A stretch of 64,000 nt of DNA from Globisporangium splendens (taxonomy: Eukaryota; Oomycota; Peronosporomycetes; Pythiales; Pythiaceae), in the NCBI GenBank assembly GCA_006386115.1, contig VFIW01000142.1:1-64000 (forward strand). Direction: 5' to 3'. The position numbers and the translations under genes were made by a program. Within the stretch, counting starts at the first letter, position 1. Each line of letters starts with the position of its first letter. The notes under the pieces were generated by a model, which saw only the letters and a list, made by a program, of their open reading frames with translations, was not told the DNA's origin and did not search any database. Positions 5,905 through 56,800 of the stretch are shown piece after piece.

Positions 5905-5973
5905 CACTTTTTGTAAGGTGTTGTTGCTTTGTGTCTGCTGGTCTCCGCGGTCGACTTGCGTGGCGTTGGTCGT

Positions 5974-6295: not shown

Positions 6296-6367
6296 GCGCC
6301 GTTGGTCTAATGGTTAGGATTCGTCCCTTCCAAGGATGAGGTCGGGGTTCAATTCCCCGACGGCGCA
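6296..6367 (+). tRNA. tRNA-Gly(TCC) copy 8
   Basis: Consensus TCC gene preceded by the GGAATGTAATTGGAGGCA spacer type. Confidence 0.95.
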
Positions 6368-6794: not shown

Positions 6795-6866
6795 GCGCCG
6801 TTGGTCTAATGGTTAGGATTCATCCCTCCCACGGATGAGGTCGGGGTTCGATTCCTCGGCGGCGCA
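6795..6866 (+). tRNA. tRNA-Gly(CCC) copy 8
   Basis: Consensus CCC gene preceded by the (GT)n/GTATGT spacer type. Confidence 0.95.
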
Positions 6867-7245
6867 CACTTTTTGTGAAGTGTTGTTGCTTTGTGTCTGC
6901 TGGTCTCCGCGGTCGACTTGCGTGGCGTTGGTCGTGTTGTTTGTTGTTTGTTGTTTGTTGTTTGTTGCTTGTTGTTTGTTGTTTGTTGTTTGTTGTTTGT
7001 TGTTTGTTGTTTGTTGCTTAGTGTTTGTTGGTGGTCGTTGGGTTGGCAGCGATCGGTGGATGGCACGCGCACAGATGCATGTGTGGATGCATGTGCGCGC
7101 GTGGACAGGTGTGTGTTGGTGTGTGTGTGTGTGTGTGGTTGTGGGTAGGTGATGTGTGGAGGGGTTTGTGTGTTGTGTTGTGTGTGTTGGTGTGTTATGT
7201 GTGTTGTGCGTGTTTGTTGTGCAATGGAATGTAATTGGAGGCAGC

Positions 7246-7317
7246 GCGCCGTTGGTCTAATGGTTAGGATTCGTCCCTTCCAAGGATGAGGTCGGGGTTC
7301 AATTCCCCGACGGCGCA
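7246..7317 (+). tRNA. tRNA-Gly(TCC) copy 9
   Basis: Consensus TCC gene. Confidence 0.95.
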
Positions 7318-7687
7318 CACTTTTGTTGCGTCCACCTTCGCTTGCCTGCCTGTCCTTTTGCCGTTTCGCGCACCACCACCACTCACGGACACGCTCCTCA
7401 CCTCGTCTCGCGCTATCATCCCGTCGCGTCCACAACCATGCTTGTGTGTGTTGCCTCTAGTCAAGTGCGCAGCTGCCGACGGCCCAGGTTGTCGTCAGCA
7501 GCGTCCCATCCCGTCCCGTCTCGGATGCAGAGTGGACGCATCGATGCCGCATCCGCGTGCGCGTGTGTGCGTGCGTGCGTGCGGGTCGGTGTCGGTGTCG
7601 GTGTCGGTGTCGGAGACGGCGCCGAGGGAGGTGTGTGCTGGCCTTTTTTTGTCGCTGGTGGCACGGCGCGCAAGGTCCATTGTGGCT

Positions 7688-7759
7688 GCGCCGTTGGTCT
7701 AATGGTTAGGATTCATCCCTCCCACGGATGATGTCGGGGTTCGATTCCTCGGCGGCGCA
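7688..7759 (+). tRNA. tRNA-Gly(CCC) copy 9
   Basis: Anticodon CCC. The variable loop is ATGT instead of AGGT; no stem is affected. Confidence 0.92.
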
Positions 7760-8122
7760 CACTTTTTGTGAGGTGTTGTTGCTTTGTGTCTGCTGGTCTC
7801 CGCGGTCGACTTGCGTGGCGTTGGTCGTGTTGTTTGTTGTTTGTTGTTTGTTGTTTGTTGTTTGTTGTCTGTTGTTTGTTGTTTGTTGTTTGTTGCTTAG
7901 TGTTTGTTGGTGGTCGTTGGGTTGGCAGCGATCGGTGGATGGCACGCGCACAGATGCATGTGTGGATGCATGTGCGCGCGTGGACAGGTGTGTGTTGGTG
8001 TGTGTGTGTGTGTGGTTGTGGGTAGGTGATGTGTGGAGGGGTTTGTGTGTTGTGTTGTGTGTGTCGGTGTGTTATGTGTGTTGTGCGTGTTTGTTGTGCA
8101 ATGGAATGTAATTGGAGGCAGC

Positions 8123-8194
8123 GCGCCGTTGGTCTAATGGTTAGGATTCGTCCCTTCCAAGGATGAGGTCGGGGTTCAATTCCCCGACGGCGCA
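8123..8194 (+). tRNA. tRNA-Gly(TCC) copy 10, hybrid flanks
   Basis: Consensus TCC gene with the 3' flank of a CCC gene, followed by a degenerate stretch (8196-8890) and a broken TCC copy. Confidence 0.93.
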
Positions 8195-8600
8195 CACTTT
8201 TTGTGTTGTTGCTTTGTGTCTGCTGGTCTCCGCGGTCGACTTGCGTGGCGTTGGTCGTGTTGTTTGTTGTTTGTTGTTTGTTGTTTGTTGTTTGTTGTTT
8301 GTTGTTTGTGTTTGGTTGTTGTTTGTTTGTTGTCTGTTGTCTGTTGTTTGTTTTGTGTTTGTTGCTTAGTGTTTGTTGGTGGTCTTTTGTGTTGGCACGA
8401 TCGGTGGATTGGCACGCGCACAGTGCAGTTGTGATGCAACTGTGCGCGCGTGGACAGGTGTGTGTTTGTTGTGTGGTGTGTGTGGTGGGTTGTGGGTAGG
8501 TGAATGTGGGGAGTGTTTGTGTGTTTGTGTTGTGTGTTTTGGTGTGTTATGTGTGTTTGTTGCGGTGTTTGTTGTGCAATGGAATGTATTTGGAGGCAGC

Positions 8601-8672
8601 GCGCCGTTGGTCTAATGGTTAGGATTCGTCCCTTCCAAGGTTTGAAGTCGGGGTTCAATCCCGACGGCCGCA
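8601..8672 (+). pseudogene. Degenerate tRNA-Gly(TCC) copy
   Basis: The 5' half and the anticodon loop CTTCCAA are intact. The anticodon stem 3' strand is GGTTTG, the T arm has lost two bases (TTCAATCCCG), and the acceptor 3' strand has an extra C (ACGGCCGC). It sits in a stretch of spacer with many indels, so consensus error is an alternative to decay. Confidence 0.8.
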
Positions 8673-9079
8673 CACTTTTTGTGTTGGTGCTTTGTGCTGC
8701 TGGTCTCCGCGGTCGATTGCGTGGCGTGGTCCGTGTTGTTTGTTGTTTGTTGTTTGTTGTTTGTTGTTGTTGTTTGTTTGTTTGGTGTTTTTTGTTTGTT
8801 GGGGGGGGTTTTTTTTTTGTCTGTTGTCTGTTGTTTGTTGTTTAGTGTTTGTTGCTTAGTGTTTGTTGGTGGTCGTTGGGTTGGCAGCGATCGGTGGATG
8901 GCACGCGCACAGATGCATGTGTGGATGCATGTGCGCGCGTGGACAGGTGTGTGTTGGTGTGTGTGTGTGTGGTTGTGGGTAGGTGATGTGTGGAGGGGTT
9001 TGTGTGTTGTGTTGTGTGTGTTGGTGTGTTATGTGTGTTGTGCGTGTTTGTTGTGCAATGGAATGTAATTGGAGGCAGC

Positions 9080-9151
9080 GCGCCGTTGGTCTAATGGTTA
9101 GGATTCGTCCCTTCCAAGGATGAGGTCTGGGTTCAATTCCCCGACGGCGCA
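9080..9151 (+). tRNA. tRNA-Gly(TCC) copy 11
   Basis: Anticodon TCC; T stem CTGGG variant identical to the copy at 526. This links the two units by descent or gene conversion. Confidence 0.9.
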
Positions 9152-9588
9152 CACTTTTGTTGCGTCCACCTTCGCTTGCCTGCCTGTCCTTTTGTCGTTT
9201 CACGCGCCACCACCACTCACGGACACGCTCCTCGCCTCGCCGCGCCTCGTCTCGCCTCTCCTCGTCTCACGCCACCATCTCGTCGCGTCCACAGACGTGC
9301 TTGTGTGTGTTGTCTCCAGTCAAGTGCACAGCTGCCGACGGCTCAGGTTGTCGTCAGCAGCGTCCCATCCCATCCCGTCCCGCCTCATCTCGTCTCGTCC
9401 CGGATGCGGAGTGGACGCATCGAGGCCGCATCCGCGTGCGCGTGTGTGTGTATGTGTGTGTGTATGTGTGTGTGTATGTATGTGTGTGTGTGTGTGTATG
9501 TGTATCGGGGTCGAAGACGGCGCCGAGGGAGGCGTGTGCTGGCCTTTTTTTGTCGCGGGTGGCACGGCGCGCAAGGGCCATTGTGGCT

Positions 9589-9660
9589 GCGCCGTTGGTC
9601 TAATGGTTAGGATTCATCCCTCCCACGGATGAGGTCGGGGTTCGATTCCTCGGCGGCGCA
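9589..9660 (+). tRNA. tRNA-Gly(CCC) copy 10
   Basis: Consensus CCC gene. It is the first CCC gene after three TCC loci in a row (8123, 8601, 9080). Confidence 0.95.
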
Positions 9661-9978
9661 CACTTTTTGTGAAGTGTTGTTGCTTTGTGTCTGCTGGTCT
9701 CCGCGGTCGACTTGCGTGGCGTTGGTCGTGTTGTTTGTTGTTTGTTGTTTGTTGTTTGTTGTTTGTTGGTCGTAGGGTTGGCAGCGAGCAGTGGATGGCA
9801 CGCGCGCACATGTGTGTGTGCATGCATGCGCACGTGGACAGGTATGTGTTGGTGTGTGTGTGTGTGTGTGGTTGTGTAGAGCTCATGGGCGGAGGTGTTT
9901 GTGTGTTGGTAGTTGTGTGTTGTGTGTGTGTTTGTTGTGCATGGGAAGGGAAGGCAAGGCAAGTCAAGGCAAGGCAGC

Positions 9979-10050
9979 GCGCCGTTGGTCTAATGGTTAG
10001 GATTCGTCCCTTCCAAGGATGAGGTCGGGGTTCAATTCCCCGACGGCGCA
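9979..10050 (+). tRNA. tRNA-Gly(TCC) copy 12
   Basis: Consensus TCC gene with the AAGGCAAGTCAAGGCA spacer upstream. Confidence 0.95.
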
Positions 10051-10419
10051 CACTTTTGTTGCGTCCACCTTCGCTTGCCTGCCTGTCCTTTTGCCGTTTC
10101 GCGCACCACCACCACTCATGGACACGCTCCTCGCCTCGTCTCGCGCTATCATCCCGTCGCGTCCACAACCATGCTTGTGTGTGTTGCCTCTAGTCAAGTG
10201 CGCAGCTGCCGACGGCCCAGGTTGTCGTCAGCAGCGTCCCATCCCGTCCCGTCCCGTCTCGGATGCAGAGTGGACGCATCGATGCCGCATCCGCGTGCGC
10301 GTGTGTGCGTGCGTGCGTGCGGATCGGTGTCGGTGTCGGTGTCGGAGACGGCGCCGAGGGAGGTGTGTGCTGGCCTTTTTTTGTCGCGGGTGGCACGGCG
10401 CGCAAGGTCCATTATGGCT

Positions 10420-10491
10420 GCGCCGTTGGTCTAATGGTTAGGATTCATCCCTCCCACGGATGAGGTCGGGGTTCGATTCCTCGGCGGCGCA
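10420..10491 (+). tRNA. tRNA-Gly(CCC) copy 11
   Basis: Consensus CCC gene; the base run just upstream is CATTATGGCT instead of CATTGTGGCT. Confidence 0.95.
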
Positions 10492-10841
10492 CACTTTTTG
10501 TGAGGTGTTGTTGCTTTGTGTCTGCTGGTCTCCGCGGTCGACTTGCGTGGCGTTGGTCGTGTTGTTTGTTGCTTGTTGTTTGTTGTTTGTTGTTTGTTGT
10601 CTGTTGTTTGTTGCTTACTGTTTGTTGGTGGTCGTTGGGTTGGCAGCGATCGGTGGATGGCACGCGCACAGATGCATGTGTGGATGCATGTGCGCGCGTG
10701 GACAGGTGTGTGTTGGTGTGTGTGTGTGTGTGTGGTTGTGGGTAGGTGATGTGTGGAGGGGTTTGTGTGTTGTGTTGTGTGTTATGTGTGTTATGTGTGT
10801 TGTGCGTGTTTGTTGTGCAATGGAATGTAATTGGAGGCAGC

Positions 10842-10909
10842 GCGCCGTTGGTCGAATGGTTAGGATTCGTCCATTCAAGGAGAGGTCGGTTCCATTCCCC
10901 GACGGCGCA
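10842..10909 (+). pseudogene. Degenerate tRNA-Gly(TCC) copy, 68 nt
   Basis: The acceptor ends match the TCC type. The anticodon arm reads GTCCATTCAAGGAG (a base lost), the T arm reads GTCGGTTCCATTCC, and the D loop has GTCGAATGG. The total is 4 nt short. The spacers on both sides are normal, so the damage is confined to the gene. Confidence 0.8.
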
Positions 10910-11273
10910 CACTTTTGTTGCGTCCACCTTCGCTTGCCTGCCTGTCCTTTTGCCGTTTCGCGCACCACCACCACTCATGGACACGTTCCTCGCCTCGTCT
11001 CGCGCTATCATCCCGTCGCGTCCACAACCATGCTTGTGTGTGTTGCCTCTAGTCAAGTGCGCAGCTGCCGACGGCCCAGGTTGTCGTCAGCAGCGTCCCA
11101 TCCCGTCCCGTCTCGGATGCAGAGTGGACGCATCGATGCCGCATCCGCGTGCGCGTGTGTGCGTGCGTGCGTGCGGGTCGGTGTCGGTGTCGGTGTCGGA
11201 GACGGCGCCGAGGGAGGTGTGTGCTGGCCTTTTTTTGTCGCGGGTGGCACGGCGCGCAAGGTCCATTGTGGCT

Positions 11274-11345
11274 GCGCCGTTGGTCTAATGGTTAGGATTC
11301 ATCCCTCCCACGGATGAGGTCGGGGTTCGATTCCTCGGCGGCGCA
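11274..11345 (+). tRNA. tRNA-Gly(CCC) copy 12
   Basis: Consensus CCC gene. Confidence 0.95.
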
Positions 11346-11667
11346 CACTTTTTGTGAGGTGTTGTTGCTTTGTGTCTGCTGGTCTCCGCGGTCGACTTGC
11401 GTGGCGTTGGTCGTGTTGTTTGTTGTTTGTTGTTTGTTGTTTGTTGTTTGTTGGTGGTCGTAGGGTTGGCAGCGAGCAGTGGATGGCACGCGCGCACATG
11501 TGTGTGTGCATGCATGCGCACGTGGACAGGTATGTGTGTGTGTGTGTGTATGTGGTTGTGTAGAGCTCATGGGCGGAGGTGTTTGTGTGTTGGTAGTTGT
11601 GTGTTGTGTGTGTGTTTGTTGTGCATGGGAAGGCAAGGGAAGTCAAGGCAAGTCAAGGCAAGGCAGC

Positions 11668-11739
11668 GCGCCGTTGGTCTAATGGTTAGGATTCGTCCCT
11701 TCCAAGGATGAGGTCGGGGTTCAATTCCCCGACGGCGCA
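11668..11739 (+). tRNA. tRNA-Gly(TCC) copy 13
   Basis: Consensus TCC gene; the AAGTC/AAGGC spacer repeat upstream is expanded by one unit. Confidence 0.95.
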
Positions 11740-12103
11740 CACTTTTGTTGCGTCCACCTTCGCTTGCCTGCCTGTCCTTTTGCCGTTTCGCGCACCACCA
11801 CCACTCATGGACACGTTCCTCGCCTCGTCTCGCGCTATCATCCCGTCGCGTCCACAACCATGCTTGTGTGTGTTGCCTCTAGTCAAGTGCGCAGCTGCCG
11901 ACGGCCCAGGTTGTCGTCAGCAGCGTCCCATCCCGTCCCGTCTCGGATGCAGAGTGGACGCATCGATGCCGCATCCGCGTGCGCGTGTGTGCGTGCGTGC
12001 GTGCGGGTCGGTGTCGGTGTCGGTGTCGGAGACGGCGCCGAGGGAGGTGTGTGCTGGCCTTTTTTTGTCGCGGGTGGCACGGCGCGCAAGGTCCATTGTG
12101 GCT

Positions 12104-12175
12104 GCGCCGTTGGTCTAATGGTTAGGATTCATCCCTCCCACGGATGAGGTCGGGGTTCGATTCCTCGGCGGCGCA
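12104..12175 (+). tRNA. tRNA-Gly(CCC) copy 13
   Basis: Consensus CCC gene. Confidence 0.95.
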
Positions 12176-12509
12176 CACTTTTTGTGAGGTGTTGTTGCTT
12201 TGTGTCTGCTGGTCTCCGCGGTCGACTTGCGTGGCGTTGGTCGTGTTGTTTGTTGTTTGTTGTTTGTTGGTGGTCGTAGGGTTGGCAGCGAGCAGTGGAT
12301 GGCACGCGCGCACATGTGTGTGTGCATGCATGCGCACGTGGACAGGTATGTGTGTGTGTGTGTGTGTGTGTATGTGGTTGTGTAGAGCTCATGGGCGGAG
12401 GTGTTTGTGTGTTGGTAGTTGTGTGTTGTGTGTGTGTTTGTTGTGCATGGGAAGGGAAGGGAAGGCAAGGCAAGTCAAGGCAAGTCAAGGCAAGTCAAGG
12501 CAAGGCAGC

Positions 12510-12581
12510 GCGCCGTTGGTCTAATGGTTAGGATTCGTCACTTCCAAGGATGAGGTCGGGGTTCAATTCCCCGACGGCGCA
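12510..12581 (+). tRNA. tRNA-Gly(TCC) copy 14, altered anticodon stem
   Basis: Anticodon TCC is intact, but the anticodon stem 5' strand is CGTCA instead of CGTCC, so the pair closing the loop is lost. The spacer after it (12582-12900) contains many indels. Confidence 0.85.
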
Positions 12582-13001
12582 CACTTTTGTTGCGTCCACC
12601 TTCGCTTGGCCTGCCTCCTTTTTGCCGTTTCGCGCACAACCACCACTCCACGGACAGCTCCTCCACCTCGCTCGCGCTATCATCCCGTCGCGTCCACAAC
12701 CATGTCTTGTGTTGTTGCTCTAGTCAAGTCGCAGCTGCCGACGGCCCAGGTTTTGTCGTCGCCGCGTCCCATCCGTCCCGTTCCGTCTCGGATGCAGAGT
12801 GGACGCCTCGAGCCCCTACGCATCCCCCCCCGCCCGGTTTTGGCGGGGGCGTTGTGTGCGTGGTGCGGGGATCGGTGTCGGTGTCGGGGTCGGTGCGGTG
12901 TCGGGTCGGTGTCGGTGTCGGGGTCGGAGACGGCGCCGAGGGAGGCGTGTGCTGGCCTTTTTTTGTCGCGGGTGGCACGGCGCGCAAGGGCCATTGTGGC
13001 T

Positions 13002-13073
13002 GCGCCGTTGGTCTAATGGTTAGGATTCATCCCTCCCACGGATGAGGTCGGGGTTCGATTCCTCGGCGGCGCA
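13002..13073 (+). tRNA. tRNA-Gly(CCC) copy 14
   Basis: Consensus CCC gene. Confidence 0.95.
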
Positions 13074-13424
13074 CACTTTTTGTGTTGTTGCTTTGTGTCT
13101 GCTGGTCTCCGCGGTCGACTTGCGTGGCGTTGGTCGTGTTGTTTGTTGTTTGTTGTTTGTTGTTTGTTGTTTGTTGTTTGTTGGTGGTCGTAGGGTTGGC
13201 AGCGAGCAGTGGATGGCGCGCGCGCACGTGTGTGTGTGCATGCATGCGCACGTGGACAGGTATGTGTTGGTGTGTGTGTGTGTGTGGTTGTGTAGAGCTC
13301 ATGGGCGGAGGTGTTTGTGTGTTGGTAGTTGTGTGTTGTGTGTGTGTTTGTTGTGCATGGGAAGGCAAGGGAAGGGAAGGGAAGGGAAGTCAAGGCAAGT
13401 CAAGGCAAGTCAAGGCAAGGCAGC

Positions 13425-13496
13425 GCGCCGTTGGTCTAATGGTTAGGATTCGTCCCTTCCAAGGATGAGGTCGGGGTTCAATTCCCCGACGGCGCA
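13425..13496 (+). tRNA. tRNA-Gly(TCC) copy 15
   Basis: Consensus TCC gene; upstream AAGGG/AAGTC repeat is the longest of its kind in the array. Confidence 0.95.
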
Positions 13497-13890
13497 CACT
13501 TTTGTTGCGTCCACCTTCGCTTGCCTGCCTGTCCTTTTGCCGTTTCGCGCACCACCACCACTCACGGACACGCTCCTCACCTCGTCTCGCGCTATCATCC
13601 CGTCGCGTCCACAACCATGCTTGTGTGTGTTGCCTCTAGTCAAGTGCGCAGCTGCCGACGGCCCAGGTTGTCGTCAGCAGCGTCCCATCCCGTCCCGTCT
13701 CGGATGCAGAGTGGACGCATCGATGCCGCATCCGCGTGCGCGTGTGTGCGTGCGTGCGTGCGGGTCGGTGTCGGTGTCGGTGTCGGTGTCGGGGTCGGTG
13801 TCGGTGTCGGTGTCGGAGACGGCGCCGAGGGAGGTGTGTGCTGGCCTTTTTTTGTCGCGGGTGGCACGGCGCGCAAGGTCCATTGTGGCT

Positions 13891-13962
13891 GCGCCGTTGG
13901 TCTAATGGTTAGGATTCATCCCTCCCACGGATGAGGTCGGGGTTCGATTCCTCGGCGGCGCA
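13891..13962 (+). tRNA. tRNA-Gly(CCC) copy 15
   Basis: Consensus CCC gene; the GGTGTC tract upstream is expanded. Confidence 0.95.
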
Positions 13963-14283
13963 CACTTTTTGTAAGGTGTTGTTGCTTTGTGTCTGCTGGT
14001 CTCCGCGGTCGACTTGCGTGGCGTTGGTCGTGTTGTTTGTTGTTTGTTGTTTGTTGTTTGTTGTTTGTTGGTGGTCGTAGGGTTGGCAGCGAGCAGTGGA
14101 TGGCACGCGCGCACATGTGTGTGTGCATGCATGCGCACGTGGACAGGTATGTGTTGGTGTGTGTGTGTGTGTGTGGTTGTGTAGAGCTCATGGGCGGAGG
14201 TGTTTGTGTGTTGGTAGTTGTGTGTTGTGTGTGTGTTTGTTGTGCATGGGAAGGGAAGGCAAGGCAAGTCAAGGCAAGGCAGC

Positions 14284-14355
14284 GCGCCGTTGGTCTAATG
14301 GTTAGGATTCGTCCCTTCCAAGGATGAGGTCGGGGTTCAATTCCCCGACGGCGCA
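14284..14355 (+). tRNA. tRNA-Gly(TCC) copy 16
   Basis: Consensus TCC gene; last TCC gene of the array. Confidence 0.95.
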
Positions 14356-14790
14356 CACTTTTGTTGCGTCCACCTTCGCTTGCCTGCCTGTCCTTTTGTC
14401 GTTTCACGCGCCACCACCGCTCACGGACACGCTCCTCGCCTCGCCGCGCCTCGTCTCGCCTCTCCTCGTCTCACGCCACCATCTCGTCGCGTCCACAGAC
14501 GTGCTTGTGTGTGTTGTCTCCAGTCAAGTGCACAGCTGCCGACGGCTCAGGTTGTCGTCAGCAGCGTCCCATCCCATCCCGTCCCGCCTCATCTCGTCTC
14601 GTCCCGGATGCGGAGTGGACGCATCGAGGCCGCATCCGCGTGCGCGTGTGTGTGTATGTGTGTGTGTGTGTATGTGTGTGTGTATGTGTGTGTGTGTGTA
14701 TGTGTATCGGGGTCGGAGACGGCGCCGAGGGAGGCGTGTGCTGGCCTTTTTTTGTCGCGGGTGGCACGGCGCGCAAGGGCCATTGTGGCT

Positions 14791-14862
14791 GCGCCGTTGG
14801 TCTAATGGTTAGGATTCATCCCTCCCACGGATGAGGTCGGGGTTCGATTCCTCGGCGGCGCA
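14791..14862 (+). tRNA. tRNA-Gly(CCC) copy 16
   Basis: Consensus CCC gene; last gene of the array. The spacer after it loses register with the consensus from about 14990 and ends near 15173. Confidence 0.95.
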
Positions 14863-15173
14863 CACTTTTTGTGAAGTGTTGTTGCTTTGTGTCTGCTGGT
14901 CTCCGCGGTCGACTTGCGTGGCGTTGGTCGTGTTGTTTGTTGTTTGTTGTTTGTTGTTTGTTGTTTGTTGTTTGTTGTTTGTTGTTTGTTGTTGGTGGGT
15001 CGTTGGGTGGCAGCGATCGGTGGATGCACGCGCCACAGATGCATGTGTTGGGATGCATGTGCGCGCCTGTGGACAGGTGGTTGGGCTGTGTTGGTTGTGT
15101 GTGTGGGTGTGTGTGGTTGTGGGTTAGGGTGATGTGTGGAGGGGTTTGTGTGTTGTGTTGTGTGTGTTGGTGT

Positions 15174-15802
15174 AAGAGGGCGCTGTTCCAAACAGTCCCC
15201 AAAACACGGCACACACGCTTGTGCCAGAGGAAGCAATCCCGACTTGGAGGGAGAGAAGAACGACTTGAGTACTTGAAGGAAAATTTGCAACTGAATTAAA
15301 AATGCTTATGGTTCCTGTCGCTACATGTAAATGAACCCCAAGGGATCCTACAGGTTTTATAACTAAAACCTAAACATACACAATAAAACCTATGAATCTG
15401 ATATATAAAACCTTGGGTACACTGAGGTTGAACCTACGAGATCTTCGAGAAGCTTGAACTTGAAGTCCCGTGGAAAATTCCCTGCAAAGTGATTGGCTAC
15501 AGCCACTCACTTCAGGTGGCAGAGACACGTCGGTCTCATCACCAGTGCAGTTTCCCAAGTAGGAACCATCACTCAGTACTTGATTAGTACATGGATGTCA
15601 TCACTCTGTACTGATTAGTACATGTGAACAATATTTTGCACTGATTAGTAAAGAGAACGCTCGTGACGCCATGGGATGACGTCACATGTGCATGTGGGGA
15701 CTGTCGTACCGTAATCCCTTTGTTATTTGTCTCTCCACAATGCACACTGAAGGTGGTGTGTGGCACACTAGATCTGGGAACAGATCCACCTTCATGTAAT
15801 GG
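15174..15802. other. Unique AT-richer boundary DNA beside the array
   Basis: No gene is visible. Three imperfect copies of a TGATTAGTA motif, two of them within GTACTGATTAGTACAT-like palindromes, lie at about 15576-15655. Repeated AAAACCTA-type words occur at 15360-15415. Neither has an obvious function. Confidence 0.5.
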
Positions 15803-16327
15803 CTAGGTATAGCCCATTACATGGTTTGGCTGTGCCGTACAGTTCGTGTGACGCAAGTTGAGCGATGATGTGAGCCAGGGGAAGTGATCATTAGTGTCGG
15901 CACACTTGTCCTTGCGCTTGCCCGGCTGGACGGAAAACTGACAAGTTTGAGATGCGCAGCAAACACACCGATGACTGCCTCCACAACTCTTCACGCGTAC
16001 GCTCTTAAACTTGATCAAGGCGTGATCTTGAATCACACGAAGCGCTTCTGTGGCGGACGAGTATTCAATTCCGATCGCGAGCATGTTGACTGAGGCTGGA
16101 CTCTTTTTTGGTGCTGGCTTGTTGCGATGACTGGCAAACTCTGACTGGCTCTCGGTCGCTTGTGCTCTGTGGTTTGGTCTCATGTACAGGGTGGCTGCCG
16201 TCTGGGTTGCCTCGACGACTTCAGGTGACAAAATCTGCCTGCCCCTCTTTTGTGTGACACAAACTGCCCAAGTATGCAAATGCAGCCCAGTTAAGGTTGA
16301 GTGTGCGGTTATTGACATAAACCACAT
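15803..16327 (-). pseudogene. Relic of a MULE-type transposase N-terminal zinc-binding domain
   Basis: A 174-codon open frame. Its residues 90-165 show a basic stretch, a Cys pair (CVCC), a further Cys before QFSV, and a terminal HTNC. This spacing resembles the C2HC DNA-binding module at the N terminus of MuDR/MULE transposases and their domesticated relatives, which are common in oomycete genomes. The DDE catalytic core and SWIM finger are absent, and no terminal inverted repeats were found. It could be a solo domain or a decayed element. Family assignment is inferred from the Cys/His pattern only. Confidence 0.35.
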
Positions 16328-16589
16328 ACTGACTCGCAGGATTTGTCTTTTTTCCCGGTCGAGTTATGATCAAAAGAAGGACGTATGCGCACCAGCACTT
16401 TGCCGCCGTTTTGAGATAAGCCAGTTAACCAGCTGGCAGTCCTGCCAACCAGCGATGCGTTTGTCATGTTTTGGCATCCAATTAACCGGTTAAAGCAAAC
16501 TGGTCACTTCTCGTGGTGGTAATGTGTCGAAAGTGTCGAAAACACTCGCTCCTCTCCGTCACGAATGATGTGTGTCATTCGAGAGCTGA

Positions 16590-16613
16590 GACACACACAC
16601 ACACACACACACA
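16590..16613. repeat. AC dinucleotide microsatellite
   Basis: About 12 AC units, 65 bp upstream of the start of the alpha/beta-hydrolase-like gene, probably in its 5' UTR or promoter. Confidence 0.9.
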
Positions 16614-16678
16614 TGCAGGTGCCGTGCCACCCAAGGAGGTGAGGCTCACATTTCGAACAACGACGGACACTGCAGACG

Positions 16679-18313
16679 ATGAACGCACTGGTACGCGCAG
16701 CGAGACTCGGCGGCCGCCATGCGGCGGTGCTTCCACGCAGCAGCACTGCGGCGCCGCGCTCACGCGGATCGAATGCGCTGCTTTCGCGCCGCTTGGCATC
16801 GTCCAAGACCACGCCCGAGCCTTCGTCCGAAGGTGTGCACGTCCCGCGCGAAAAAGTGACCAAGGAGATGCTCATCAGCGAGTTCAAGGAGATCCTCAAG
16901 CTCGTCGTCGGGGTATGCTACCGGAAATGACAGACGCGTCACTCAATAGGGGGATAGATGACAAAGGTGTTTGCATGTGCTGGTTTGACTTGCTTGTGCA
17001 GGGGACCGTCGCGATCGTCGGGTTGGTGACCACGAGTGGGTACGTCATTGAGAAGACGAAGCAGTGGAACCCGATGCCCGCGTCCGGGATGCTCCTCGAG
17101 ATCCCTGGTGACGACGGCAACACCGTGACGGTCCACGTGCAGAAGAAAGGCACCGGTCCGCTCACGGTGGTCCTCGACGGCGGCGTCGGCGAGACCTCGT
17201 TCGACTGGGAAAAAGTCATGGAGCAGGTACGAAGAACGCAACACGCTGAGGTGTTTTCTAAGTGTCGGAGCTCTTTGACACTGGTGTACTCGGAGGCGGT
17301 CTCTGTAGGTGTCTCAATTTGCTACGGTGGTGAGCATTGATCGCCCTGGGTTGGGCTTCTCAACTCCCGGCGCGCTTCCACGCACTTCCACGCAGGTATG
17401 CAACTCCAGAGCTCTCTCAGCTTCCCATTACGTCGATGTAGGCATAACCTGCTAACGACTGCTCCTCTATTCTCTCTGTTTCGTTGCTGTAGATCGCGAA
17501 TGAGTATGCGCAGGTGCTTCAGAAGCTCAATGTGCTGGACCAGGTCATCCTTGTGGGCCACGGCGCCGGTGGCTACAACATGAGGTATGGCGCCTTCATG
17601 TACGCATGTGAAGATATTCAACACTTATATTTGTGTCTTGGTTCTGTGGATGAAGACAATTTGCGGAAGACATTGAGAACCCGAACCTACCGGTGAACTA
17701 CACCGTTGAGGGGCTAGTGTTGGTCGATGCGCTCCAGGAAAACCTCCGCGAGGAGCTGGAACGCGTCTCGCCGACCGTGAAAAGCGCGCTCAAGACGATG
17801 GACGACAATGGCGAGACCGTGCTTGCGCTGTCGCGCTTCGGCATCATCCGCATGATCAACAGCATCCAGCGCGACAAGTTTGTCAAGCGCTACTCTCCCA
17901 TCGCGTTGCCGTTCGTCGAGCACTTCTTGCCGTCGCCAGCGCACCGCCAAGGTGCGCTCTGGGAAAACCAAGGCATCCCATTGACCGAGGAGCGGTTGCG
18001 CAATGAGCCACGCGCGAGTGGTTTTGAGTTCCCGTGCGTCGTGCTGTCACACGGCAAGCCCGACATGTTCGACGGCATGAAAGCAGATGCGAACATCGAC
18101 TTGGACACGATCGTCGCGCTCGAGCGCAAGTGGCAGGCGGCGCAACAGCGCCTCGTCGACGAAGTGAGCGCGCTCCCTAGCGTGCACATTGTCGTCCCGG
18201 ACGTTGGCCACAACATCCAGCACGAGGAACCCGACGAGATCACGCGAGTGGTGCGCGCACTCGTGAACGAGGCGCAGGACAAGGGCTCTGGCGAGGGACT
18301 CAAATCGTTGTAG
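16679..18313 (+). CDS. Mitochondrial alpha/beta-hydrolase-fold protein, nucleophile Ser replaced by Gly
   Basis: Five exons: 16679-16912, 17002-17226, 17309-17395, 17493-17584, 17656-18313. All junctions are GT..AG and in phase, giving 431 residues. Residues 1-45 are Arg/Ala/Ser-rich and lack acids, like a mitochondrial presequence. A hydrophobic segment follows at about 74-97 and could anchor it in a membrane. The hydrolase domain has VVSIDRPGLGFS (oxyanion-side loop), a nucleophile elbow reading GHGAGG at 204-209, and DVGHNIQHEEP near the end with the expected catalytic His. The family motif is GHSxGG; here the Ser position is codon GGC, one base from AGC. The fold is therefore clear, but the usual Ser chemistry should be lost. 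Its partner or substrate cannot be told. Confidence 0.85.
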
Positions 18314-47654: not shown

Positions 47655-48816
47655 ATGACGAAAGCGAAAAAGCGCGATGACGAAGATGCAGACAAAGTCG
47701 GCGACGCTGGCGCAGTGATCGGCAGCATGGAGACGCACCCGAAGCGCACGACATCGTTTGTCGCGCGCTTGACGCACAAGAAGCACGTGGTAAGCAGGTG
47801 CAGCACGCGTTTTTGTGCATGATGGATCATGACGCTTGGATGGAAAACTGAAGCAATGCGCTGTATGTACGTCTTGATGCTTATTGTTGATGTGGCGCGT
47901 CGTTATGTGATGGTCGATGCAGCATTATGACCTGGCGACGCGGGTCGCGATGGAACACGAGAACAGCAAGTACTGGGCGCGGATCCTGCTGCTGTTCCCG
48001 CTCGCGCCAGTGTGCGCGGCGCTCTCGACGGTCGTGATCGGCGGCGTGATCGGCGGCGTGATCGTCAATGCCGCGACGAATAACTGCAATGCGAGTCTCA
48101 TGAGTGAGTTGCCTTGCTATAACAGAGACGCTATGCCGATTTGCACTCATATTCGGATGTGCGTAGCATTTATGCAGGGTGCAGTGGTGCTAAGCTATGT
48201 GCTTATTTGGTTTTATGCGTACTGTTGGATGGGACCATCTCCCATCAAGAGTCTCCGAACGGTTCGCGTGTTCTACTTGGTCTACGGGGTCGTGTGCATT
48301 GTGTGGTGGGGAATCTACGGGACGCTCTAGACCACAAGCGCCACAAGCTCGGGGTTCCAGTCCTGCCTCTTGATGTCCCCATCACTGTATATCGTGTCGC
48401 AGTACGAAGTTGCGATATTCTGGATCCTGTTCCTCGTGTTCCTCGGCTTTGTCGCCAATGAACGCACTGCGAAATTGCAGCAGGAGAAGCTGGATGCGTG
48501 GAACAGTCGCAAATCGAACGCCAAGAAACGCGCCGACGCTGCGGAAGAAGCCATGCGGGCAGAGATTCTTGAAGCGGCTCAAGAAAAAGCGCGGCAAGAG
48601 GGAGACGAGCTCCGAAAGCAGAGTCTCAAGGCTGCGCAGGAACGGCTGTACATGGACAGCGATGGGGAAGACGAAGATGCCGAGAGGGATGACCTCTTTG
48701 CCGAAGAAGACAACACGTTAGGTGTGCATGTCGGCGTGCAGGAAGCAGAGGAGGAAGAAGACGAAGAAGAGGAAGAAGTGCTGCTGACCCAGGTGCAGGG
48801 AACGGCACTTTCGTAG
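47655..48816 (+). CDS. Four-TM protein with long acidic coiled-coil tail, interrupted by in-frame TAG
   Basis: Exons 47655-47789, 47923-48103 and 48167-48816 join in phase to 322 codons. The frame is broken by TAG at 48328-48330 (CTC TAG ACC) and then stays open to a TAG at 48814. Four membrane segments are visible: ILLLFPLAPVCAALSTVVIG, VVLSYVLIWFYAYCW, VFYLVYGVVCIVWWGIYGTL (directly before the TAG) and VAIFWILFLVFLGFV (after it). A charged helix rich in KARQEGDEL-type sequence and an Asp/Glu tail follow. Because the fourth segment and tail lie beyond the stop in the same frame, the stop may be a nonsense mutation, a read-through site or a consensus error. A 51-nt intron GTCTAC..CTCTAG would remove it in frame but would delete TM3. 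The family was not recognised. Confidence 0.6.
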
Positions 48817-49311: not shown

Positions 49312-52300
49312 ATGAGCGGGGGCAACGGACAGACCATCACGGTGTGCGGCAATGTGTTCCGGTGCGTAGTTAGGGTGCTTTGTGTATGTCGTTTGTGGAG
49401 TTCAAAGGGGCGAGATGAAAGCCAAAATGAGGGAAACAAACAATAAACAGATGATGCCCTCGAACAACGCTAACATTACGACGTCAATGTACATGACGCA
49501 CTAGGCTGGTCGAGACGATCGGACGCGGATCTTATGGAACAGTACGTCATATAATGCGTTTATGGTGCTTTCTATGGTGTAGAGGGGGAAAATGGATACT
49601 GATGTTGTTGTTTATTGTGTTGTTGGATCATGAACGATATTCACGTGTAGGTGCACAAAGCGATCAACCTGTCGTCTGGTGCGGCCGTGGCTGTGAAATT
49701 GATCGGGAAAGACAAACTACGACGCCCGCATGAGCGCCAGAGCATCGAAAAAGAGATCGAGACCATGCGCGTGGCTGTCGAGAAATACGAAAACGGACAC
49801 CCACATATCGTGCGCTTGCTCTGTACTAAGGTGCGGAAATCCTGCTTCAATTTGTGCATATTGACTTTCGTTTGGTTTGCGTGTATACTGACGAAAGATT
49901 TGGTATATATAATTGCTTCTCTATACTTGTGACAGGAATCGCAACACCATATCTTCATCGTTCTGGTGCGTGCGTGACAAGCATATCGTGGTTTAGCTCT
50001 TGATCGATTAGCTTATTAATGTGGATATGCAATTTTATGTAACGCGCACTTTTGCAGGAATACTGCGCGGGTGGCGATTTGGCGACGCTGATGAAGGCGA
50101 ACCATGGGCTCACGGAGGAGCAAGCGCGTCTCTTTATGTCTCAACTAGGTATGCTTCGCATATTGCCTTCGATAATATGCATTTATCATCATCGTGCATA
50201 TGCGCCACTGATCGTGCGTGTCTGCTTGCCTTATTCAGCGTCGGGTCTCCAGTTCCTTCGCTCGCAGAACGTGGTGCATCGCGATTTCAAACCTGCGAAT
50301 CTGCTGCTGTCGTCGAAAAACATCGCGAATGCCAAGCTCAAAATCGGTATGACAACTTTATTTATCAGTGCGCCATAATCGAAGTTGTTGGATCTGACAC
50401 CGCCTTTGACTGTTGTAAAACTTGTGATTATCATTAGCCGATTTTGGGTTCGCGCGGCAATTGCAGTCCGAGTCGTTGGCAGAGAGTGTGGTCGGGTCCC
50501 CATTGTACATGGCACCGGAGCTGCTTGAGTACAAGAGCTACGATGCGAAGGCAGATCTATGGTCTGTCGGCATTATCCTCTACGAGATGCTGGTCAACGA
50601 CCACCCGTTCCTGGTGGTGGACAACTGCCACGCGACGAACCACTTGGCACTTCGACGCAATATCCAGCGGTACTACGAGCGATACGGTCGACTGCGGCTG
50701 CCAGCACGCATTTCGGTGTCGCCAGAGTGCGAAGAACTGGTCGAAGGACTGCTTCGCGTGGACCCACGGCAACGGATATCGTTTGAAGACTTTTTCCGTG
50801 CGAGTTTCTTGCTTCCTCCCCTGCCAGCAGACACGAGCGCAGCCACAGATCTTGCGAATTCCACGAACAAACAAGCGCTCGTGGCTGAGAATCAACCGGA
50901 ATATGGTAGAGTTATGGTTTTGGAAAGGCTCTTTCATTGTTTCTTGCTGATGCTGATTCATTTGTTCTTGCGTTAAGATGAATGGGCTGCATTCAGTGAC
51001 GAGTATGTGATTGTGGACAACGAGTTTGAGGATGTCGGGCGAAAAGTCTTGGACGGCCACAATCTGAACACCGAGCTCGAGGAGAAACTGAACGAGATGC
51101 CGCGTAAAGTTGTTGCAAATGGCGAGAAAGCAGTGCCGCGAACTCCAGATCTAGCTGTCCGACCAATTCCACCTGCCTCACCAGCTCAAACAGCAGCATC
51201 GACCATCGAGAAAGACAACTGCGTTGTGGTATCGTCGCCACCTGTGGCGGTTCATACCGTTGACACGCATGGGATTATTGACGTGGTGGTGGATACATCG
51301 ACCCCAAGAAACTCCATGGGAGACCATGAACAAAATTTTGAAAGCAAACCACAGACTGCAGCAGTCGACGAGATTGTGGCGAAAACGGAGAACTGGTTGG
51401 TTGGCGAGCGCAAAGAATGGGTGACGGACGATATTCACCTGGAAGAACTGCTTGGCATTTGCTACAAGAGCTTTTCCTGTGGCAGCATCGGTCTTTTCGT
51501 ACCAACACCGTTTGGAGACTACATTGCATTCCACGAAGGCTGTCCTCATTACTACTTGTCTATGGAATCAATTGCGGCATCGAAGCGAGATGGAAGGTAT
51601 GGAATTTGATCAGATTGACTTTTCTCTGATGGCATGGATTTCTTCTAAAACATGTTTGATGTTGTCTATTTAGGAACCCTCCGTACGTGCTGGGGTGCAT
51701 CGTCTTTATTGAAGACTACGTGACTTCAGCGGTATGTTACCCAGCGTGCTCCCAGGATTTCCAGTACTGTTTTCCCTGCCCACTAATCTCTTGTTTGATT
51801 GATTTTGTAGGAGTCTAATCCATTCAACTTGCGAGAAGGCACGAAATACCATATCGTTACGGTGACACCGCTGTCTTCCTCAGAGAGTGGCGCAAATGAT
51901 GGCATGGGTGCTGGTGCTTCTTCGATTGAAGACGAGCTGCCATTATCTCAAGTGCTGACGTCCCGCTCGCCTCGAAATGAACCGCCGACGAACAGCTTCT
52001 CCTCTGTCCAAGCCGTGGTCAATGCCTCGACGACGCCGCCAACGCAGCACCAGAGAATATCGTTCCGCAGCTTCCACATCAGCCATTTGGCGTTGTTTTT
52101 CTTGAAGGGCGGGAAGCTCCCGTATGTCGCGTTTAACGAAGGTGCGCCGCACTATTACCTGGCAAACGAGTCTCTTCAAGCGGCGATGCAAAGTGAGGGC
52201 GACGGCAGTGACAAGACACCTCCAGCGTACATATGTGGCGAGATCATCTTTATCGACACGTTCCAAGCCACCGAGGTACGTCCTTTTATGCTGCTGAATA

Positions 52301-52435
52301 TCAACGCTGACGGAGTTAATCACAAACTTATCTTGTGTTCGTATGGCAACCAAATTGTAGGATTTCAACCCATATCGATTGCCATACGGAACTCGCTTCC
52401 ATGTCGTGACTGTTGCAAACCCCAAGAAAACGTAG
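49312..52435 (+). CDS. ATG1/ULK autophagy kinase fused to two ATG11/FIP200-type Claw domains
   Basis: Eleven exons: 49312-49361, 49505-49541, 49651-49830, 49936-49965, 50058-50148, 50239-50346, 50438-50905, 50978-51596, 51674-51731, 51811-52275, 52361-52435. Every junction is GT..AG and phase-consistent: 727 codons, 726 residues. Kinase domain about 17-295: GRGSYG (23-28), Lys45, HRDFKPAN (143-150), DFG (167-169), GSPLYMAPELL. A linker follows with SDEYVIVD (328-335), matching the ATG8-interacting motif of ATG1/ULK. Claw 1 spans about 476-568 (FVPTPFGDYIAFHEGCPHYY, REGTKYHIVTV). Claw 2 spans about 629-723 (FFLKGGKLPYVAFNEGAPHY, LPYGTRFHVVTV). The C-terminal tandem MIT that binds ATG13 in canonical ATG1 is not seen. 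Exon 8 alone carries the AIM linker and the start of Claw 1, so this is not two genes. Known roles: ULK/ATG1 starts autophagosome formation; Claw domains bind cargo receptors. The combined function is inferred. Confidence 0.9.
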
Positions 52436-52668: not shown

Positions 52669-53811
52669 TCAGAGCAGTGGATACGCCGAGATTTCTTTCG
52701 AGACGTCCGACACCAGCACGAGGTTTTGATGCAGACACGTTGTGATCGCGTTTGGTTTCCTCTCAACCGCGAATTCCTTGACAATGTCCAGGTTGTTGGC
52801 GGCCGTGGTGCTGTCGTCGCTCGCGTGGTCACCAGTGCCTGGATTGTTGAGCGCGTGCTGGTAGTCCCACACGCAGATCTTCGCGTCGTTGCCGCTGGAG
52901 AGCAGCCACTCGTTTGGCTTGAACACTGGGAAATGCACCTGCGAGACTGCAGCAGAGTGCTGCTTCAAGCGACGCACCATTTGCTTGGAGGAAAAGTCGA
53001 CGATCGCAATCGATGCGTCCCCGAGACCCGCCGCAAAGGACTTTCCATTCGGCGCAAACGCGATCGAGTGCACCAGTGGCGGGTTGAACATCTGATTCAC
53101 GCCTGCTGTGGCACTGCTTGCACCTCCCACAGAATCCAAGCTATTAACGCCAGTGTTGAGATCGATCTTGAATTTCATGCGTCCACGCGAAAAGTCCCAG
53201 AACAACAGGAATCCGTCCATGCCGCCAGAGACCAGATCCCACGGCGCATTCGGTCGGAATGGTGCTGCACTGCAGATATTCACGTGCTGGCCGCGCAAGG
53301 TCTTGTACAAGCGATGCGCCTCCATGTCGTAGATTCGGATGTCACCGTTGTCATCGGGCGCGGACAGATACTTGCCCTGCTTGCCTGGATGCCGAGACAG
53401 CGCATTGATCTCGTCGTCGTTGTCCTGCAGGATCTCCTTGCTGGCGCAGTTGAAGATGAGCCCCTCTTGGCGCAAGTCGAACGTGAGCACCTTGTTGCCC
53501 GCTGCGACGTGAATGTAGTCGCCGTTAGCGCTGAACACCATCGAGTTCACGGCGCTCTCGTCCTGGTCGTCGTCGGACGTGAGCCCCAGCGCTTTCTTGA
53601 TGTTCATCGACCGCGTCGCGCGCGTCGTGCGCACGTCCCAGAGCCGGCACGAGCCATCGTCGCTGCCTGACGCCAGTACGTGCGGGTGCTTGTCCTCCTC
53701 CACGAGCAGCGCGCTCACGCTGTCGCGGTGGCCTCTGAACTTGACGAGTGGCGTCGTCATCTCTCGGAAATGAACGAATCGAGCGCTCAGCGATTGGAAG
53801 CCATCGATCAT
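52669..53811 (-). CDS. WDR53-like WD40 repeat protein
   Basis: Single exon, 380 residues; the ATG at 53757 (MTTPLVKFRGH) is an alternative start. Six or seven WD repeats are visible, including LASGSDDGSCRLWDVR, APDDNGDIRIYDMEAHRL, LVSGGMDGFLLFWDF and LLSSGNDAKICVWDY. NDDEINALSRH, HVNICSAAPFRP, FNPPLVHSIAFAPNG, AAVSQVHF and the terminal EISAYPLL follow the same order as human WDR53 (EEEINCLSLN, HSNICSSVAFRP, LNPALAHSI, GVSQVCF, CISVYPL). WDR53 is a candidate DDB1-CUL4 adaptor. The gene converges on the ATG1-Claw gene with about 230 bp between stops. Confidence 0.88.
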   Translation of the reverse strand: MIDGFQSLSARFVHFREMTTPLVKFRGHRDSVSALLVEEDKHPHVLASGSDDGSCRLWDVRTTRATRSMNIKKALGLTSDDDQDESAVNSMVFSANGDYIHVAAGNKVLTFDLRQEGLIFNCASKEILQDNDDEINALSRHPGKQGKYLSAPDDNGDIRIYDMEAHRLYKTLRGQHVNICSAAPFRPNAPWDLVSGGMDGFLLFWDFSRGRMKFKIDLNTGVNSLDSVGGASSATAGVNQMFNPPLVHSIAFAPNGKSFAAGLGDASIAIVDFSSKQMVRRLKQHSAAVSQVHFPVFKPNEWLLSSGNDAKICVWDYQHALNNPGTGDHASDDSTTAANNLDIVKEFAVERKPNAITTCLHQNLVLVSDVSKEISAYPLL

Positions 53812-56800
53812 GCATGCCGATCAGTGCGGACTTAATCGAGAGAACAAAACAAGAATGATGGTCGATGAGTAGTACCGTGGATTGCAATATAATGTGTGTC
53901 GAGCACATGTTGCTGATTACGGTACTGTGCTCGGTCTTTATCGAAAGAAGGGTGTATGAAATCGATTCTTAGCACTTCAGGGTGTACACTAACAAATAGG
54001 TGAAAACAGAAAAACAAAGACATCAGAAAAAAGAGGTGATGTTTTTTTGTTGCCGTTGGTGCAGAAAATGTATTGATTGTTGGCTGATTTGAGATCGTGG
54101 AGTTGCTATGTTAGCAAAGTCGCTCTCGCCCGCTTGTCGTTCTTTGACCAAGAATTCACCCACCACGAACCTGGATGGCGTGACCTCAAGTAGGGATCAA
54201 GAAGCGCGATGACGTCCACTCGCGGCTGCGTTTCCATGAGTCACAAGAGCACACAGAACGGCACGTTGCCTCTCCTGTGCTTCCCTCTGCATTGCGTAAG
54301 AGAGACGCATTCGACACGTAATTGCGTGGATACAGACGTCTGCTTCCTTCAATTGCGCATGTGCGTCTTTGAACCCCTAGGTTCAGGGACGTACATGCAT
54401 GCTGCCAGACAGTTATTACATTACCAACGATGCTTGACCACAGTGACACTGCAACATGGCTGCATTTTAGCTCCCCTCAGTTGTAGACTTGACTCGCGAC
54501 CACGTCCTCTATGAAGCCACATTGGGGTATGGTTCTGAGAATGCACAGTACGCACAGGCAAGTAGTCATGTTGTGAAGGCAACGTGGAGGTATGATTCCA
54601 CGAACTGGCAGCGAAATTGTTTGGCTCCAGAAAGTGCGCTTCTTTCGAGGATATGCAAGTTGCTCTCGCTGGCGGGAGAGGTCAAGCCCGTCCATCCGAC
54701 GCAGTTCTTTAAATGCGCCTTGAGAAGATGCATTAGGGTGACAAACGAAGACTTTCCTTGCGTCTTGATCCAAAACGCAACCTGCAAATCGTAATAACGT
54801 CACCATGAATACAGTACGATCACATCCAAAAAGTGATTGAGACATTGTATTCAAAATCACCCAAAAGAGACATACTGTATGAGCTGCACCTTGCTTTTGA
54901 AAGACTCATCAACACTAAAAGATCGCAAATCGGCAGCCTGATCTGCAGAAGTCATTTTGGAAAGCTGACGGCAGAAATCACTGAGAAAAGTCACTCGGAG
55001 ACCTGATCTGAGATCGTTAGCTCGCTGACCAGATCTGAGATCTTTTGTCCAATTGTTTCGGCCATTGGTGGTCGCTTTCCCTCTGCTGCAATGGCGATAT
55101 GTGCATACTGAGAAATCTCCTTCTCTCACGTTTGAATGTGCAAACTTGCCGATTTGAAAAGAGAGATATCACCTCCGATTTGGAGGGGATATCCATTCGA
55201 GAGAAGCCACAGTGACACTGATTTGAATGTATTCGTATCACACTCGATGGGTGGTGTGCAAGCAGGCAGCCTTACCGATCGCTCATTACCCACCTCCATC
55301 ACAGCTTTCACATCTTGGTCCTCGCCGCCAGTCGTGATGATACTGTAACTCACGCGATTGTACCAGGCACTGCGATATTTCGTCGTTCGCGAAAGCAAGT
55401 CAGCAGTGGATCCGCAAAAGCCAGAAAGCCACTTCAATGAGACGTCCCTCTGATAATACCTAGCAACACTATATCATAAATTTCTGAAAATAAGAGGTCA
55501 ACTAAACCTATTTCTTATTACTTCACTTACTTCACAAAGGTTATTGTAAAGTCAGAACTTTTAGTTGCTGCGAAACCAGAGAGTTGTGTGGCAGAAAAGC
55601 CCGATTGTTTGATCTACGATATGAGGACGCCGTTGTAGCCATACTTGAGAGGACAGAGTGTGCGCGCATGGATCCAAGCTCTCTTCCTCACTCAGAAGCA
55701 AAAGTCACAGAAAAAGATCGCAATCTACGTGGCTCCTTCCATTCTTTCTCGAGGAACCCATGGTAGCTGCTCAAACTCATACCTCAGGATTCAAAAGAAC
55801 CAGCGCATTGCTGTCCCCAAGTGGCTTCATTCCAGTCGAATCAGAAGCGAAGCTTCAGAGAAATAGGTCGCGACGCGACATATATCACTATTTTACTGAA
55901 AGCAAGACACATTCTCTGTGTTCGGTGTATTGTATTTTGGATCCGACAGAAGTGACGGAGCGTGCAGGATCTGGGAGGTTGTGGAGTTTGGGGCCGTTCG
56001 AAACATGGATCCATTGTCATTTTACGGTTTCAGGTTGCACACAAGTGTCGGCAGCATAGAAACGCGCATCTCGTGGTGTCAATTAGCCCCCTAACTGCGT
56101 TTTGTTTATTTATGTATCCTTGAGGTTGTTTTCTCATCTCATCTGTCCCATGCAGGACAATCGTGTCTGCAGCCACGATGTCGGTTCAGCGAGAGACAAC
56201 TCGCCTTTGCTGAACCCTGTTGTGGGTACAGAATGCTCTGATAACTAAAACGTACCGCTGCCAGCACAATTCAACGACCGGAAACTGCCAAAGGATCTCG
56301 CACCAAAACGTAGGTTCATAAGTTGAAGAAGCTCTTTCTAAAATAAGTAAGCAAGCGTTGCACTCAAATCTGTACAGTAAAATACTAAACCCTCTGTAAA
56401 CTGGCAAATGAAGTTTGCAGCTACGCAGGTTTTGGCTCTCAAGCTTTAAGCAGACTAGCTCCGAGTTTTCCTCCTTGCCTACTTCCCAAGCTTTGCGCAA
56501 AATAGGAGTTGGTGTGCATGAATTTGATAGAATTGATGACACGAGTCTAAATCGCGGAAAGTTGTTCGTTCAAGTCTGTCATATATGTTCCTGATCCGAG
56601 TTCAAACAAGTGCCAAGGGTGCACCTTCCTTCCTTCCTTCCTTCCTTCCTCCCTTCTTCCTTGATCCCACCTTGAACTCTTCCCTTACTGTTGGAAAAAA
56701 AGGAAGTGATATCGGCAGCGGCGATTGCGTTTGGGTGATAGCTCCTCCTCGTCCCCGCGACCCGTTTTGAATCCACTGCCAGAAAACTCATATCGTGCAA

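Follow-up and report, generated by a model that had tools for sequence, protein, structure and literature searches.

The present work concerns a gene on contig VFIW01000142.1 of Globisporangium splendens (assembly GCA_006386115.1), of which positions 1 to 64,000 of the forward strand were analysed; this stretch of 64,000 nucleotides is called the window below. At 49312-52435 on the + strand it holds a gene in which a protein kinase of the ATG1/ULK type is joined to two Claw domains of the ATG11/FIP200 type. In yeast, in animals and in plants, the kinase that initiates autophagy is a protein of its own, distinct from the scaffold that docks cargo. We will show that the fused gene is an old oomycete gene, common to many water moulds, and not a chimaera of gene models, and we will argue that its product is, with reasonable probability, a parallel ATG1/ULK kinase placed by its tandem Claws.

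Splicing of the window by the GT-AG rule, from the ATG at 49312 to the TAG stop at 52433-52435, gives 11 exons with consistent phases and one frame of 726 residues. The exons are the following:

Exon 1, 49312-49361, + strand: ATG, residues 1-16 and part of residue 17, followed by a GT donor; exon 1 and intron 1 are identical in the second copy discussed below.
Exon 2, 49505-49541, + strand: glycine-rich loop of the kinase, with GRGSYG at residue 23.
Exon 3, 49651-49830, + strand: N-lobe of the kinase, including the VAVK lysine.
Exon 4, 49936-49965, + strand: kinase residues 90-99.
Exon 5, 50058-50148, + strand: kinase.
Exon 6, 50239-50346, + strand: catalytic loop of the kinase, HRD.
Exon 7, 50438-50905, + strand: DFG, activation segment, APE, end of the kinase and start of the linker.
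Exon 8, 50978-51596, + strand: putative ATG8-interacting motif (AIM) SDEYVIV (residues 328-334), linker and most of Claw 1, unbroken.
Exon 9, 51674-51731, + strand: a portion of Claw 1.
Exon 10, 51811-52275, + strand: end of Claw 1, linker between the Claws and most of Claw 2, with 9 in-frame gap positions between the copies.
Exon 11, 52361-52435, + strand: end of Claw 2 and the TAG stop.

The original prediction had described one 726-residue frame over 11 phase-consistent exons with a kinase, an AIM and two Claws, and the splicing, the Pfam matches and the orthologues all bear this out. In the Pfam search, residues 17-289 match Pkinase (E 2.2e-67), and the catalytic motifs are found in order as GRGSYG at residue 23, VAVK at 42, HRD at 143, DFG at 167 and APE at 191. 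The AIM-type motif SDEYVIV lies C-terminal to the kinase and resembles the AIMs that yeast Atg1 and human ULK1 carry. All 40 of the 40 homologues (numbered P0001-P0040) contain the pattern S-[DE]-[DE]-Y-V-[IML]-V. The ATG11 domain (PF10377) is matched with an E value of 6.2e-33 and 114.1 bits, against a curated cut-off of 22, in two stretches, the better of which is 625-721. Both Claws are also matched separately, above the cut-off, in a profile search of the genome's contigs.

The two Claws were further compared by means of profiles made from the window protein and 22 homologues, chosen from P0001-P0040 for complete models and including P0001, which is the second copy of the gene. The profiles of Claw 1 and Claw 2 match each other with an hhalign E value of 3.9e-25, and the Claw of the genome's own ATG11 matches that of Claw 1 with 2.3e-24 and that of Claw 2 with 1.9e-20. 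Claw 2 reaches human FIP200 in the profile comparison (hhalign E 1.3e-10, probability 97), and a search of the solved structures with Claw 2 alone finds the FIP200 Claws (best E 1.7e-7). Taken together, this evidence from sequence places the predicted two-Claw assignment far above chance. Support in the Claw tree is too low to tell whether the two Claws came from a duplication within the fused gene.

Adjacent kinase and Claw genes could in principle have been joined only on paper, and false joins do occur at this locus, as the models of the homologues P0013, P0020 and P0030 include sequence of an upstream membrane-protein gene. However, exon 8 is a single open exon that holds the AIM as well as the larger part of Claw 1, and its first Met is residue 362, downstream of the motif, so that translation can reach the AIM only from an upstream exon. 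Directly after the junction of exons 7 and 8, a Trp is kept in 22 of the 23 aligned proteins, while the preceding QPEY is exact in only 10/23, with gaps in the Saprolegniales rows. GT-AG is kept at all 10 introns in both copies of the gene, and kinase and ATG11 domains occur together in 38/41 related proteins (see below). The layout of exon 8, the splice sites in both copies and the orthologues thus lead us to reject a gene-model artefact, which is hardly credible.

When residues 455-726 were searched against about 5.8 billion proteins, the best match was a deposited protein of Globisporangium splendens itself, annotated as 'Ulk/ulk protein kinase, partial' (P0001, on contig C25) and 98% identical over these residues. 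The deposited model differs from ours at the junction of exons 6 and 7, where it contains a short read-through stretch ahead of DFG. In 21 of the 22 other aligned proteins the residue before DFG is Ala, as in the window splice; in P0021 it is Pro. The public P0001 kinase thus looks odd from the read-through residues, yet the gene splices cleanly.

Contig C25 carries a second copy of the fused gene with the same neighbours. A recent duplication was considered, but we read the C25 copy as the second haplotype in an assembly that was not collapsed, although this is not proved. The exonic lengths of the two copies are 9 positions apart, in frame, and the 43 exonic substitutions between them comprise 36 synonymous and 7 amino-acid-changing ones, with a non-synonymous rate (dN) of 0.0042 and a synonymous rate (dS) of 0.074. 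Residues 1-290 show zero amino-acid changes, and dN for residues 476-726 is 0.0035. Both Claws are under purifying selection. Elsewhere in the assembly, kinase loci with equal or near-equal scores recur on two or three contigs (C51/C25, C188/C100, C66/C121/C131 and others), an indication that many regions are represented by both haplotypes in the 53.3 Mb assembly.

The search with residues 455-726 yielded 41 proteins, and 38 of these have both kinase and ATG11 domains in their precomputed annotation. The three exceptions are P0029, with the ATG11 domain only, P0038, with the kinase only, and P0041, with ATG11 and ATG17_like but without a kinase. An organism name is given for 35 of the 41, and all of these are oomycetes, from Saprolegnia and Albugo to Phytophthora. 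The genera are Phytophthora, Peronospora, Plasmopara, Bremia, Hyaloperonospora, Nothophytophthora, Pythium, Lagenidium, Globisporangium, Albugo, Aphanomyces, Achlya, Saprolegnia and Thraustotheca. By strict word patterns, the kinase is recognised in 37 of the 41 proteins, Claw 1 in 39, Claw 2 in 34 and all three in 32, and some of the misses look like truncated or faulty models. Both Claws are present in the window protein and in the 22 homologues selected for complete models. Between the window protein and that of Saprolegnia diclina, identity amounts to 206/275 positions in the kinase, 60/100 in Claw 1, 72/94 in Claw 2 and 15/44 aligned positions in the main linker. A second search, starting from the Saprolegnia protein with E up to 10, gave 40 matches, all within P0001-P0040, and no fusion outside that set; as its hits depend on five-residue words in common and on comparable length, distant fusions could escape it. 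The architecture in relatives, suggested as a check along with the original prediction, is thus found in 38/41 matches, the named ones all from oomycetes. Since the splice sites are kept in both copies and this architecture is so widely shared, the fused gene is an old oomycete gene and not a chimaera.

It is important to point out that the fusion itself has been described before, contrary to the original prediction, which knew of no example. In a survey of Phytophthora sojae from 2017 (PMC5431975), Atg1a of oomycetes is stated to have an Atg11 domain in place of DUF3543, and the accompanying tree covers P. sojae, P. capsici, H. parasitica, Py. ultimum and others. The window protein, an oomycete kinase with an Atg11 domain replacing DUF3543, is of this type. 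On the strength of that statement the fusion is already known, while no description of its tandem Claws, of its AIM or of its altered pocket (see below) was found in the literature searched. An earlier kinome of P. infestans from 2010 lists two ULK kinases, and the available main text is without Atg11 (PMC3019232). In P. sojae, attempts at silencing PsAtg1 gave no stable transformants (PMC5431975).

We now turn to the placement of the kinase. The nine best matches among solved structures are chains of ULK3, ULK2 and ULK1, with scores of 179.8 bits for ULK3, 161.2 for ULK2 and 160.9 for ULK1, followed by SIK3 with 148.1. In a tree of 36 chosen kinase domains (P0154 from Ectocarpus, which had earlier grouped with the outgroup, was dropped beforehand), all nine fused kinases form one clade with a support of 100. 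This clade groups with 17 ATG1-type kinases from plants, algae, oomycetes and others (support 98); human ULK1-3 and seven outgroup kinases of G. splendens lie outside that group. In the approximately unbiased (AU) test, a grouping of the fused kinase with these seven outgroup kinases is rejected (p 0.0155), while groupings with ULK3 (p 0.055) and with the oomycete ATG1b (p 0.20) are not. On the basis of the tree, the AU tests and the solved-structure matches, the fused protein is, by homology, an ATG1/ULK-family kinase that fits with several sister groups.

With ULK3 as the best solved-structure match, and with the grouping of the two not quite rejected, one may ask whether the kinase belongs to ULK3 instead of ATG1 and has a role outside autophagy. 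Against this stand the AIM-type motif and the Claws, which both point to autophagy, and the best tree, in which the fused kinases fall with plant, algal and oomycete ATG1 (bootstrap 98). The placement of human ULK1/2 is itself doubtful in that tree, where they fall outside the ATG1 group, perhaps as a long-branch effect. We consider a ULK3 identity very unlikely.

The rest of the initiation complex was searched for in the same genome. Profile search of the contigs finds an ATG11 match with its own Claw on C115, so that a separate ATG11/FIP200 gene, which it had been proposed to look for, appears to exist. Near this Claw ATG17_like is matched weakly, with a score under the cut-off of the family; the same search also matched in 4 of 14 control genomes. 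Two further ATG17_like matches below the cut-off lie at C119:57416-58319 on the - strand, perhaps in a coiled-coil protein. Matches to ATG13 on C127 and to ATG101 on C135 were obtained as search matches only. A second ATG1 gene on C3 could be spliced in full, and its predicted product has a kinase, an AIM-type motif SGEYVLV and an MIT2 domain (PF21127). For MIT1 (PF12063) there is no match in the genome, nor is there one in any of the 14 control genomes. The original prediction had the multi-subunit initiation complex collapsed into one chain, but in view of the matches to ATG11, ATG13, ATG101 and a second ATG1 we reject a replacement of the whole complex by the fused protein. With these present, the fused gene appears to work beside a complete complex.

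In other organisms, the C-terminal MIT domain is the part of ATG1 that binds ATG13. No MIT family is found among the Pfam matches of the 726-residue protein at E up to 1, where the HMMER filters drop most weak matches, and the fused kinase is thus without a recognised MIT domain and hence without a recognised ATG13-binding part. Nor are ubiquitin-like or ATG17-like parts among its Pfam matches.

The question is then what the Claws would bind. In FIP200, K1569, R1573 and R1584 surround a hydrophobic pocket that includes F1529, C1565, A1567, F1574, V1576 and F1582 (PMC7946963, PMC6477179); the numbering was assigned in this analysis from the 1490-1594 construct. The corresponding positions were counted in 46 oomycete Claws, i.e. 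23 Claw 1 and 23 Claw 2 from the window protein and the 22 homologues. In 46/46 there is an F or Y at each of the positions of F1529, F1574 and F1582, while that of A1567 is Ala, Thr or Ser, and that of V1576 is Leu, Val or Ile.

These counts bear on the claim of the original prediction that the Claw pockets read phosphorylated cargo receptors, in which case the kinase would be brought to cargo directly and might phosphorylate the receptor bound. The FIP200 Claw does read phosphate, and yeast Atg11, although without K1569 and R1573, still binds receptors better when they are phosphorylated (PMC7946963, PMC6477179). All 23 Claw 2 moreover have basic residues at positions 1575 and 1581 (1581 also in 15/23 Claw 1, as K or R), which would suit phosphate binding. 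The three basic residues of FIP200 themselves are nearly all lost, however, as the position of R1573 is Pro in 46/46 and that of R1584 is Val or Ile in 46/46, while at K1569 Claw 2 has Glu in 23/23 and a basic residue in none, and Lys is found in only 2/23 Claw 1. The Claw of the genome's own ATG11 is likewise without basic residues at K1569, R1573 and R1584. This set is thus not family-wide among ATG11/FIP200 Claws, and with the genome's ATG11 and yeast Atg11 both lacking these residues, phosphate reading of the FIP200 type may be an animal feature. The claim is therefore weakened, with the hydrophobic pocket kept, but the yeast precedent leaves room for phosphate sensing by other means; we regard phospho-reading as distinctly unlikely, and recognition probably does not rest on a phosphate pocket of the FIP200 type.

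The reading that we find reasonably probable is that oomycete Atg1a is a parallel ATG1/ULK kinase placed by its tandem Claws, which stand in for the MIT domain. The fused kinase would act beside the canonical complex and independently of ATG13, the Claws replacing the ATG13 contacts in bringing it to its place. They would bind short acidic-hydrophobic motifs of the type of LC3-interacting or FIP200-interacting regions (LIR/FIR) through the retained hydrophobic pocket, and their targets could be cargo receptors or AIM-bearing autophagy proteins. Through its own AIM the protein would be anchored at the growing membrane by ATG8. The presence of two Claws per chain may provide avidity, or may pair kinases for activation and so replace the pairing by dimeric ATG11/FIP200. 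By analogy, such a natural fusion could be self-sufficient, since artificial pairing of Atg1 replaces Atg11 in fission yeast (PMC7511232).

A different use of the Claws would be to bind AIMs inside the initiation machinery. The AIM bound could be the protein's own, with autoinhibition or self-assembly that ATG8 would relieve, or it could belong to the second ATG1; the fusion would then regulate ATG1b instead of reading cargo. SDEYVIV of the fused protein and SGEYVLV of ATG1b both have an acidic-hydrophobic layout like that of FIP200 Claw ligands, and binding of p62 to FIP200 and to LC3B is mutually exclusive (PMC7946963, PMC6477179). The conservation of the motif in 40/40 homologues also fits such a role. 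An AIM is, however, no surprise in an ATG1 kinase, where it would serve to bind ATG8, and we consider this use of the Claws rather unlikely. The likeness in layout between this AIM of the fused protein and a Claw ligand leads us to guess that there may be a self-binding switch. A wider picture would have two parallel initiation kinases in oomycetes, an ATG13-linked ATG1 and a self-contained one, with Claws that bind AIM-type motifs, both those of receptors and their own, without reading phosphate, and with ATG8 arrival and cargo competing for one switch that controls the kinase; as a whole, this picture is doubtful.

It is important to note that several observations weigh against a parallel kinase placed by its Claws. 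Claw 1 is the less securely assigned of the two domains: searched alone against the solved structures, it gives a chance match to a pollen allergen as the best hit (E 0.051), with FIP200 next (E 0.53), and its profile match to human FIP200 is weak (hhalign E 9.7e-5, probability 58). AlphaFold2 models of two homologues, not of the window protein, are poor, with mean predicted local distance difference test scores (pLDDT) of 41.6 and 42.4. The pocket positions of Y1564, C1565 and K1568 differ from FIP200, for which reason ligand binding may be altered or lost, and the basic residues at 1575 and 1581 mean that the pocket is not wholly uncharged. The absence of MIT among the Pfam matches carries the limit of the filters given above, and the AU tests allow ULK3 or ATG1b as the sister group. 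Finally, among the titles and abstracts found in the literature searched, which includes few subscription papers and leaves out bioRxiv, there is none on the function of the fused protein, and no reports on binding, localisation or kinase activity of any of its relatives were found.

As to the surroundings of the gene, frames reading like a membrane protein lie upstream at 47911-48816 on the + strand. The N-terminal parts of P0013, P0020 and P0030 map there, so that the neighbourhood is kept in relatives and these three models merge two genes. About 230 bases downstream, at 52669-53820 on the - strand, there is an open frame of 383 residues that reads as WD40-like and is also found beside the C25 copy. 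At the start of the window, positions 1-16000 form a T- and G-rich strand, with an AT skew of -0.25 to -0.58 and a GC skew of +0.14 to +0.36, and composition is normal beyond ca 16 kb. At a score of at least 200, positions 1-18000 hold only two tandem arrays, at 2492-2629 (unit TGTTGTT) and at 8296-9158.

If, as it appears, a natural fusion and an unfused complex coexist within one cell, the direct tethering of kinase to receptor would be testable by removal of a single gene. The group that carries it includes pathogens of crops and of fish, and PsAtg1a is reported among the genes up more than 2-fold in infection stages (PMC5431975).

Compared with known systems, the closest is PsAtg1a of P. 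sojae, which shares the kinase with an Atg11 domain, in an organism with more than one ATG1 gene (Atg1a and Atg1b) and an ATG11 with an Atg17 domain; the available text names an Atg11 domain, while two Claws, an AIM, pocket residues and a mechanism are not mentioned in it (PMC5431975). To the ATG11 Claw (PF10377) and FIP200/RB1CC1 the likeness is that both tandem domains match the family and keep the aromatic pocket positions, but here the Claws are duplicated on a kinase, without an ATG17-like scaffold, and K1569, R1573 and R1584 are nearly all lost. With ATG1, ULK1 and ULK2 the fused protein shares a ULK-type kinase followed by a putative AIM, and it differs from them in having no recognised C-terminal MIT domain. 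The nearest printed test of tethering that we found is the engineered, dimerising Atg1 of fission yeast, in which a leucine zipper bypasses Atg11 (PMC7511232). There too an extra module is joined to Atg1, the zipper being a pairing module, but that fusion is artificial and uses a zipper instead of Claws, and self-pairing of the oomycete Claws is only putative.

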